Origin: Thermoplasmata archaeon
Lineage (GTDB): Archaea; Thermoplasmatota; Thermoplasmata; Lutacidiplasmatales; UBA184
Direction of reading: 5' to 3'
Assembly (NCBI GenBank): GCA_021817245.1
Contig: JAKAVQ010000008.1
Span: 1-64,000, forward strand
DNA: 64,000 nucleotides
Part shown: piece by piece, positions 1-45,492 of the stretch
How the letters are laid out: the number at the start of each line of letters is the position of its first letter
Numbering within the stretch: position 1 is the stretch's first letter
Notes under the pieces: model-generated
Databases searched by the model: none
What the model saw: only the letters and a program-made list of their open reading frames with translations
Told to the model about the DNA's origin: nothing
Translations under genes and position numbers: made by a program

Positions 1-122
1 TCCCCGTCTCGAGGGCAGATTGTCCGCGTGTTACTGAGCAGTGCGCCGAGGGCTTACCCCTCTCGACTCGCATGGCTTAAGCGAACTCCAATAGCGGTGC
101 CCGCCGGCAGGATCAACCGGAT
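1..122 (-). rRNA. rrs: 16S ribosomal RNA, 5' end (partial)
   Basis: The minus strand reads the canonical archaeal 16S start, TCCGGTTGATCCTGCCGG, at about 104-122. It is followed by the helix region CTATTGGAGTTCGCTTAAGC, then GCCATGCGAGTCGAGAGG and CTGCTCAGTAACACGCGGAC, all at the spacing expected of archaeal small-subunit rRNA. The gene runs off the left edge, so only about 120 nt of roughly 1,470 are present. The mature 5' end is placed at about 122 by analogy and could be off by a base or two. It is transcribed leftwards, away from the HAD gene, from the promoter annotated next to it. Whether 23S and 5S are linked cannot be seen. Confidence 0.96.
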
Positions 123-431
123 TTGTTCGCACACTTTACGCAATGTGCGGGAATACGTGTTCAAGATCGTGAACGATCAACTGACTGGCGGATATGCTCT
201 TCGCTGGATTGAGCGCTCTTTCGCGTACGTCTCCTCCGTCAGTCCTGAGAGGTCACTCCCCCCGTCTCGGGGGAGGGGATCTCAGGGCTCCACGCCCTGT
301 CGGGCCATCTGTGGCGTCGCCCGGAAGAGCGCGGTTCATGGATCCCCGGCTCGCCGTGGCGGCGTCGGCCCGAGACTGGCCTCCGAAGAGGCCGCCCGGC
401 CGTTCCTTGGGAGCAGTGGGCCGTATTTAAG
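123..431 (-). promoter_or_regulatory. rRNA promoter and 16S leader
   Basis: No gene fits between the HAD stop at 461 and the 16S start. A good archaeal TATA element, CTTAAATA on the minus strand, lies at 424-431, which predicts transcription start near 400 and a leader of roughly 275 nt. The leader contains short inverted repeats: GTTCA/TGAAC around 158-174, overlapping GATCG-TGAA-CGATC, and a 7-bp CTCCCCC/GGGGGAG hairpin near 254-272. These probably contribute to pre-rRNA folding. The usual 16S processing stem needs the 3' flank of 16S, which is outside the window, so it could not be tested. Open frames here show no protein-like features. Confidence 0.7.
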
Positions 432-10771: not shown

Positions 10772-10806
10772 CGGTTCCTCCCCGGAACGGTACGGGCCCG
10801 GGGGGA

Positions 10807-10844
10807 CGTCCGGAGCGAGCGCGCGGTCGTCGCGGCTCGGCTCG
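10807..10844 (-). other. T-loop intron of tRNA-Lys (bulge-helix-bulge)
   Basis: A 38-nt intron between tRNA positions 59 and 60. The junctions form a textbook hBHBh': the T-stem GGGGG/CCCCC is the outer helix and TTCG/CGGA (one U-G pair) is the central 4-bp helix. The two 3-nt bulges are AAC and CGT, and GAGC/GCTC is the inner helix. Cutting after the second base of each bulge joins TTCGAA to T, giving the consensus T-loop TTCGAAT. Boundaries therefore follow from structure and are probably exact. The enzyme (archaeal EndA) is not in this window. Confidence 0.85.
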
Positions 10845-10884
10845 TTCGAACCCCCGACCACCCGGTTAAAAGCCGGATGCTCTT

Positions 10885-10913
10885 TGTAGGGCCGGCGGGC
10901 CTGCCCACTGGCC
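10885..10913 (-). other. D-loop intron of tRNA-Lys
   Basis: About 29 nt inserted after AGTTAGGTT of the D-loop. TAGG pairs with CCTA as a possible 4-bp core, TTG and CAA can be the two bulges, and GCC/GGC starts the inner helix. This is a looser bulge-helix-bulge than the T-loop one because the outer helix is interrupted before GCTC/GAGC. The ends may be off by one or two bases; excision leaves a D-loop of 9-11 nt. Confidence 0.7.
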
Positions 10914-10969
10914 AACCTAACTGAGCTACGGGCCCGATCCCGTTCGGTGCTTCGGAGACCCGGGCTCCG

Positions 10970-45241: not shown

Positions 45242-45325
45242 CGCTGAGGGGGAGATTCGAACTCCCGCGGCGAGATCGCCACCAGCTTTCAAGGCTGGCG
45301 CCTTACCGGGCTAGGCTACCTCAGC
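45242..45325 (-). tRNA. tRNA-Ser(TGA)
   Basis: A class II tRNA of 84 nt. Acceptor GCTGAGG/CCTCAGC with discriminator G, anticodon arm CCAGC-CTTGAAA-GCTGG (anticodon TGA), long variable arm TGGCGATCTCGCCGC, T-arm GGGAG-TTCGAAT-CTCCC. It has no intron and no encoded CCA. A TATA-like GGTTTATT at 45352-45359 lies about 27 nt upstream of the 5' end. Confidence 0.93.
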
Positions 45326-45389: not shown

Positions 45390-45492
45390 TGCAGGTGCCG
45401 GGAGATCCGCGGCCGGATCGGCGCGGTCCGGTCGATTCGAACCCGGGTGGTCAGCTTGGAGGGCTGACATCCTACCACTAGATTACACCTGC
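45390..45492 (-). tRNA. tRNA-Gly(TCC) with a T-loop intron
   Basis: Exon 1 (45436-45492) has acceptor GCAGGTG, a D-arm ATCT/GGAT, anticodon arm TCAGC-CCTCCAA-GCTGA (anticodon TCC), and T-stem CCGGG followed by TTCGAA. The matching T-stem CCCGG and acceptor CACCTGC plus discriminator A lie 32 nt further on (45390-45403). Removing the insertion gives a 71-nt cloverleaf with T-loop TTCGAAT. No CCA is encoded. A promoter-like GAGATAAC sits near 45529-45536, within the end of cgi121. A contiguous reading would leave the T-stem and acceptor unpaired, so the intron is needed. Confidence 0.88.
45404..45435 (-). other. T-loop intron of tRNA-Gly (bulge-helix-bulge)
   Basis: A 32-nt intron between tRNA positions 59 and 60, the same site as in tRNA-Lys. 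The outer helix is CCGGG/CCCGG, the 4-bp core is TTCG/CGGA, the bulges are AAT and TCT, and the inner helix is CGACCGG/CCGGCCG with one mismatch. Cutting after the second bulge base rebuilds TTCGAAT. Confidence 0.85.

Follow-up and report, generated by a model that had tools for sequence, protein, structure and literature searches.

The window analysed here, a 64,000-nt stretch of contig JAKAVQ010000008.1 (assembly GCA_021817245.1) from a soil Thermoplasmata archaeon, is part of contig C11 of a fragmented 2.31-Mb bin that is 92.9% complete and 4% contaminated. Using an exon-based finder, we recognized three tRNA genes in the window (Gly, Lys, and Ser; Table 1). ARAGORN and Rfam RF00005, run on the same 64 kb, returned the Ser gene only and missed both intron-bearing tRNAs. 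A truncated archaeal 16S rRNA gene lies at the contig end, where cmscan matched 123 bases; an RF01959 search of the whole genome gave no 16S match, with the control matching in 9 of 14 genomes. Judged by an AAA ATPase that the window encodes, its nearest named relatives are Thermoplasmata bins with up to 95% identity, followed at a greater distance by Candidatus Lutacidiplasma silvani with 84%.

Table 1 Features of the window, with positions counted from its first nucleotide
Feature	Position	Strand	Evidence or remark
tRNA-Gly(UCC) gene with T-loop intron	45390-45492	-	Sequence reading; R1 92.1 bits, R2 76.9 bits (both models were trained on this gene among others)
tRNA-Gly 5' exon, positions 1-59	45436-45492	-	
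tRNA-Gly intron, 32 nt, between positions 59 and 60	45404-45435	-	Same-site intron in 26/26 complete orthologues
tRNA-Gly 3' exon: T60, T-stem 3' strand, acceptor 3' strand, discriminator A	45390-45403	-	
Exon strand of Gly splice core, TTCG, positions 54-57	45438-45441	-	
Intron strand of Gly splice core, CGGA	45406-45409	-	Constraint from covariation
tRNA-Lys(UUU) gene with T-loop and D-loop introns	10793-10935	-	
tRNA-Lys T-loop intron, 38 nt, 59/60, core TTCG/CGGA	10807-10844	-	
tRNA-Lys D-loop intron, ~29 nt	10885-10913	-	Boundaries by eye from TAGG/CCTA core; register +/- one or two bases
tRNA-Ser(UGA), intact, adjoins tRNA-Gly	45242-45325	-	ARAGORN, Rfam RF00005, exon-based finder
Archaeal 16S rRNA gene, 5' end	1-123	-	Truncated by contig end

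The tRNA-Gly(UCC) gene is complete, with acceptor strands GCAGGTG/CACCTGC, T-stem strands CCGGG/CCCGG, and a T-loop that reads TTCGAA[32 nt]T. The initial annotation had placed an insertion between positions 59 and 60 and had described a splice core in which TTCG faces CGGA, flanked by the bulges AAT and TCT. We confirmed the boundaries of the insertion to the base, and our reading of the core agrees, including the predicted spliced T-loop TTCGAAT, which is then followed by CCCGG. The Gly gene therefore has the two 3-nt bulges and the 4-bp central helix of the bulge-helix-bulge (BHB) motif found in archaeal tRNA introns. The further claim that two of the three tRNAs in the window share this design also holds for the genes that we found, with tRNA-Lys adding a D-loop insert to its T-loop intron.

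To collect Gly orthologues, we used the 5' exon pattern alone on named contigs, which gave 27 copies, one of them truncated at a contig end. All 26 complete copies carried an insert of 28-34 nt at the same site, and the Gly insert is therefore not a chance occurrence. When folded without constraints, the Gly precursor does not take the BHB form at minimum energy, whereas in the corresponding folds of Glu and several other precursors the T-stem and intron stem surround an internal loop. The case for BHB introns rests on comparison between genes and not on single folds.

For this comparison, we aligned 24 genes of different isoacceptors. Pairing was found in 100% of cells for the T-stem, the presumed outer helix, in 89.6% for the core, and in 82.6% for the intron stem, the presumed inner helix, whose value has to be read with the fact that introns were shortened mid-way by hand, presupposing paired ends. 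Changes on both sides occurred at all six pairs of the intron stem, and the exon stems, too, remain paired through changes on either strand. Within the core, C56 faces G in all 24 genes, and U54 and U55 face A or G in all 24. The whole structure is 94.5% paired in register and at most 54% when slid. A larger set comprised 116 distinct genes; as 81 of them came from searches with trained models or their follow-up, its core statistics carry some bias. In this set, pairing in the core reaches 90.5% in register versus 52.6% and 63.8% when displaced by one base, and C56 faces G in 112. The restored loop is standard, with A at position 58 in 116/116, A at 59 in 114/116, and T at 60 in 115/116. These patterns suggest that the intron stem and the T-loop-complementary intron end are held by selection and that the interior drifts; the T-loop introns appear functional by every comparative test made.

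Position 57 divides the cores into two types. Among the 116 genes, G57 (n = 71) faces C in 70 and A in one, and A57 (n = 45) faces G in 37, U in eight, and C in none. The 35 genes gathered without a trained model gave the same picture, with G57-C in 30/30 and A57.G in 5/5. For instance, in one Gly gene with A57 (L129) the facing base has changed from C to G to match. With G57, the intron strand mostly reads C-G-R-R; with A57, it is usually G-G-A-R and sometimes U-G-A-R. Consequently, the initial proposal of one splice design stands insofar as a T-loop-complementary intron 3' end is followed by a 3-nt bulge; its single word CGGA does not, since the core varies with base 57. A.G is not a standard base pair, and its recurrence suggests that it is accepted or preferred beside the bulge. 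Weak cores occur in four of the five Asn genes, which have a mismatch at C56, and in one Gly gene (L170). The four Asn introns (L011 131-234, L014 128-231, L182, and L190) keep the conserved site despite the poor core; the fifth gene (L183, genome G018) has A57 and a fully paired TGAA core. Both A57.G, found in 37 of 45 A57 genes, and the Asn mismatches count against a strictly canonical BHB.

The initial annotation had also expected a genome-wide family, and scans of the whole genome and of relatives bore this out. Searching the genome with a plain DNA pattern of the core yielded 33 matches versus three for a reversed control, and because only four of these were recognized as tRNAs (Gly, Lys, Asp, and Arg-UCG), we turned to covariance models. 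Our list of 47 tRNA genes in the bin combines RF00005 (37 matches), a covariance model built from seven T-loop-intron genes (R1), a Pro pattern, the exon-based finder, and some genes read by eye. T-loop inserts interrupt 15 of the 47, about a third: Gly-UCC, Lys-UUU, Ser-GCU, Ser-GGA, Ser-CGA, Glu-CUC, Arg-UCU, Arg-UCG, Ala-GGC, Asn-GUU on two contigs, Asp-GUC, Gln-CUG, His-GUG, and Leu-UAG. Hence, 14 isoacceptors have a T-loop intron at one site and with one core logic. Four genes have D-loop inserts (Lys, Leu-UAG, Arg-GCG, and one Met) and four have anticodon-loop introns (Met, Tyr, Glu-UUC, and Leu-UAA), bringing the total to 21 intron-containing genes, as Lys and Leu-UAG carry D- and T-loop inserts together. 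The tRNA-Leu(UAG) gene (L178, G000:C16:81073-81179), read by eye and covered only partly by its R1 match, adjoins the tRNA-Gln(CUG) gene with its T-loop insert. The Arg(GCG) gene and a Met gene (L016 and L017) have a D-loop intron and a T-loop without intron. Trp and Pro-UGG tRNAs were not found in the bin by the combined tRNA searches.

At E <= 0.001, RF00005 misses eight of the 15 T-loop-intron genes, and the two Asn genes appear as 54-nt fragments. Intronless Pro(GGG) and Pro(CGG) genes (L293 and L295) are also missing from its list, and the RF00005 search is therefore incomplete for ordinary genes too. For annotation, this means that tRNAs with T-loop introns are missed or fragmented and so look absent.

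A fragmented, incomplete, and slightly contaminated bin could harbor pseudogenes or assembly errors, with intact copies of the same tRNAs doing the work. However, the same kind of insert occurs in independent assemblies, and the exon stems retain their pairing through two-sided changes. In addition, every Asn, Asp, or His gene detected in the bin carries a T-loop insert, and RF00005 and R1 searches of this 92.9%-complete bin found no intact gene for any of the three. We rejected this explanation on the conservation of the inserts and regard its probability as close to nil. The T-loop inserts almost certainly have to be spliced out, judging from this comparative evidence. Contigs C15 and C17 of the bin (genome G000) have near-duplicate ends with Asn and CAU tRNAs whose introns have diverged, and they probably stem from two related strains binned together, in keeping with the 4% contamination.

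To follow the introns across Thermoplasmatota, we used a second covariance model that includes the BHB pairs (R2). A search at E <= 5e-11 of class genomes with a completeness of 80% or more gave R2 matches in 191 of 349 genomes, a count that is neither free of false matches nor complete, since on known loci normal tRNAs reach 59.1 bits, above the scores of seven T-loop-intron genes (Lys with its D-loop insert, two Asn, three Ser, and Leu). The genome's own family, f1, which comprises seven genera and which we infer to be Lutacidiplasmatales, has 71 genomes among the matches listed, all with 4-9 R2 matches each; no f1 genome was seen among the zero-match genomes listed, with 138 further zero-match genomes lying outside this list. 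The phylum search (genomes at least 90% complete) matched 126 of 284 genomes; 16 of these lie outside the class, and family f42 reaches seven matches. Checked against the sequences, 30/30 automatic loci from the class search had T-loop introns, as did 20/20 and then 12/12 stretches fetched afterwards (of the 12, the finder recognized 11, and the last, a Gly gene that it rejected for its C33, was identified by sequence reading). Among fetched matches outside f1, the count is 20/20. The check covered high-scoring matches. From the R1 list, 27 stretches chosen by length comprised 19 with T-loop introns and eight without.

Individual introns also recur over wide distances. The T-loop intron of tRNA-Arg(UCU) is found in families f1, f5, f8, and f21 and in f41 of another class, and f8 carries it in 9/9 fetched genes and 2/2 more. 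mcrA was present in all eight f8 genomes tested and in none of eight other genomes tested; f8 are therefore methanogens, which we take to be Methanomassiliicoccales, and the question of T-loop intron processing may thus be testable in cultured members. Three families of the order, f1, f2, and f3, share a tRNA-Lys with both D- and T-loop inserts; among individual genomes, both inserts are present in G018, G001, G028, G037, G039, and G038. Genomes G044 and G051 of another order had no R1 match of interrupted-gene length among the matches listed. In Thermoplasmata bin AUK033, a tRNA-Arg(CCU) gene (L158, 2952-3071, - strand) has a 45-nt T-loop intron with the core TTCG/CGAA.

We examined which enzymes could process these introns. 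The genome has one RtcB gene and one splicing endonuclease gene, EndA, whose product contains two PF01974 domains in one chain, the layout of the alpha'2 type. Counted from an assumed GTG start within a longer open frame, EndA has 354 aa; it resembles both the M. kandleri chain 5x89 and A. fulgidus EndA, matching A. fulgidus 1r0v over 258 residues. At the sequence level, it thus corresponds to an alpha'2-type enzyme, one chain of about 300-350 aa with two endonuclease domains. Neither mark of a broad-specificity endonuclease, a beta subunit or an insertion like the Crenarchaea-specific (CSL) or ARMAN-specific (ASL) loop, was found: the PF01974 search of the genome yielded the one tandem protein and no beta subunit gene, and the YGS..GD..LS segment before the catalytic half aligns gap-free to A. 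fulgidus EndA, the placement of CSL and ASL being deduced from where the sequence alignments of the A. pernix and ARMAN-2 chains begin. Relatives are similar, with PF01974 matches in 55 of 61 genomes (own included), of which 52 had two domain matches, two had one, and one had three.

Taken together with the comparative analysis, this indicates that the Gly insert is very probably a BHB intron at 59/60, one of an old set in family f1, that is spliced by the alpha'2-type EndA and RtcB. In the precursor, the T-stem would serve as the outer helix, T54-R57 and the four intron bases that directly precede the 3' bulge would make up the central helix, and the two ends of the intron would pair as the inner helix. 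EndA, the only splicing endonuclease recognized in the genome, would cleave each 3-nt bulge behind its second base, and RtcB would join the exons, restoring TTCGAAT in a mature tRNA that is presumably used. The Gly intron would then be one member of an old set, its interior drifting while the stem and the T-loop-complementary end stay under selection. With the T-loop interrupted, elbow folding and T-loop modification should come after splicing.

Such an assignment has to be weighed against what is reported for euryarchaeal enzymes. Passages of three reviews describe euryarchaeal tRNA introns as single and located at 37/38 (PMC4090602, PMC6379350, PMC4033280), and PMC4090602 states that Euryarchaeota with alpha4 or alpha2 enzymes have introns in <10% of tRNA genes, single and at the canonical position. 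According to passages in PMC4090602 and PMC4033280, alpha4 and alpha2 enzymes take the canonical BHB only, and PMC6379350 limits efficient removal of relaxed-BHB introns to (alpha beta)2 and epsilon2 enzymes. The same source credits the A. fulgidus enzyme with removing BHL introns at 37/38 from full pre-tRNA, and a passage of PMC8707768 grants the homodimer BHL-like motifs; PMC4033280 mentions two Euryarchaeota with multiple-intron tRNAs. Abundant 59/60 introns next to a "narrow" alpha'2 enzyme conflict with the reviewed rule for Euryarchaeota: where PMC4090602, in the passages concerned, ties subunit type to intron range, this genome has introns in 21 of 47 tRNA genes, 15 of them in the T-loop, and no beta subunit was found.

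Either view of the alpha'2 range would accommodate a canonical BHB relocated to the T-loop; the A57.G and Asn cores, which depart from a strict BHB, would not fit the strict view. This departure could mean that processing needs another broad-specificity nuclease or an unrecognized partner subunit. We consider this improbable, given a single PF01974 protein in the genome with its two domains and the two domain matches shared by 52 of the 55 matched genomes. A bolder version of the preferred reading, in which EndA and RtcB act on the T-loop introns, is that the phylum has its own T-loop splice code on an alpha'2 enzyme, with base 57 read as G-C, selected A.G, or A-U, that the intron set is ancestral in the phylum, and that the rule by which endonuclease architecture limits intron position is wrong as written. 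We offer this combination tentatively, as a possibility that is less likely than not.

BHB introns at 59/60 are known, mainly from Crenarchaeota. The position is among the non-canonical tRNA intron positions that PMC4090602 (Yoshihisa 2014) lists for some archaea, and the non-canonical introns described there resemble ours in site, BHB motif, short length, and the possibility of several per tRNA. The rich sources named in its passages are, however, Crenarchaeota and Nanoarchaeota with (alpha beta)2 enzymes, whereas ours is a Thermoplasmatota genome with an alpha'2-type enzyme. Permuted tRNAs of Thermofilum pendens and Cyanidioschyzon merolae share the 59/60 junction and a T-loop BHB, but the genes in that passage (PMC3218864) are circularly permuted and those found here are linear with an intron. 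A short 31-nt T-arm intron, likewise outside Crenarchaeota, is described for a Lokiarchaeota tRNA-Sec (PMC9499178), although it concerns one gene in another phylum and the passage gives no exact position. The Asgard Atabeyarchaeia and Freyarchaeia, likewise uncultured and intron-rich, have introns in 92-95% of tRNA genes, often non-canonical; they belong to another phylum, and the T-loop does not appear in the main text of PMC11291895.

The Lutacidiplasmatales paper (PMC9287336) used tRNAscan-SE, and the word intron does not occur in its main text. Since tRNAscan-SE 2.0 detects non-canonical introns (673 in 217 archaeal genomes, with Euryarchaeota in a training set, according to passages of PMC8450103), database entries for some T-loop-intron genes may exist. 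In titles, abstract starts, and passages of the literature on the phylum, its orders, and euryarchaeal T-loop introns, including passages of PMC9287336, PMC12220078, PMC9499178, and PMC8707768, we found no report of T-loop introns in Thermoplasmatota. As far as this search reached, their scale and their pairing with a tandem alpha'2 enzyme across the phylum are apparently undescribed.

How the introns came to occupy one site in 14 isoacceptors with one core logic is a separate matter. The initial annotation had seen in the near-invariant T-loop a means of spread, by which a mobile intron family would now be moving among tRNA genes, and large-scale tRNA intron transposition has indeed been described for Thermoproteales (Fujishima 2010 and Sugahara 2008, as cited in passages of PMC4090602 and PMC4033280), where likewise many tRNAs of one genome have non-canonical introns. 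The introns of different tRNAs are similar in Thermoproteales; here they essentially are not. In 90 pairs of different-tRNA introns within the genome (14 of the 15 introns), the mean similarity score was 12.7 versus 12.5 for shuffled sequences, and active spread found no support in this comparison. A slight excess exists, in that 12% of the pairs, against an expected 5%, score at or above the shuffled 95th percentile; one pair of the 90 is a possible exception. Similarity has mostly faded between orthologous introns as well, since of 952 pairs from the same isoacceptor 14% come up to the 95th percentile of pairs from different isoacceptors, and the test is therefore blind to old events. The isoacceptors fetched from G001, G018, G028, and G089, where intron-bearing genes alone were sought, are ones that carry an intron here, which would speak for inheritance, and the 4-9 matches in all 71 listed f1 genomes also argue against a family on the move. 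We therefore consider ongoing spread unlikely.

The probable history is an ancient gain, after which the introns were handed down mainly vertically; the family ancestor may have seen a burst of gains. This history is compatible with splicing of BHB introns by EndA and RtcB. Such a history is favored by the Lys D- and T-loop introns shared by three families of the order and by the Arg(UCU) intron that reaches a second class, although repeated independent gains at one site of a given tRNA would give the same picture. The 4-9 matches of f1 do not establish a burst peculiar to this family, since f42, outside the class, reaches seven model matches. The one pair clearly above chance comprises the Ser-CGA and His-GTG introns (L179 and L180; score 25 versus a 99th percentile of 20), a likeness that reflects either a recent copy or GC-rich chance.

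A further feature of tRNA-Gly(UCC) lies in its anticodon loop. In 14 of 29 distinct genes, namely that of the window together with L098-L103, L107, L109, L112, L115, L119, L129, and L141, position 33 is C instead of the near-universal U (loop CCTCCAA); the remaining 15, from close relatives, have U33.
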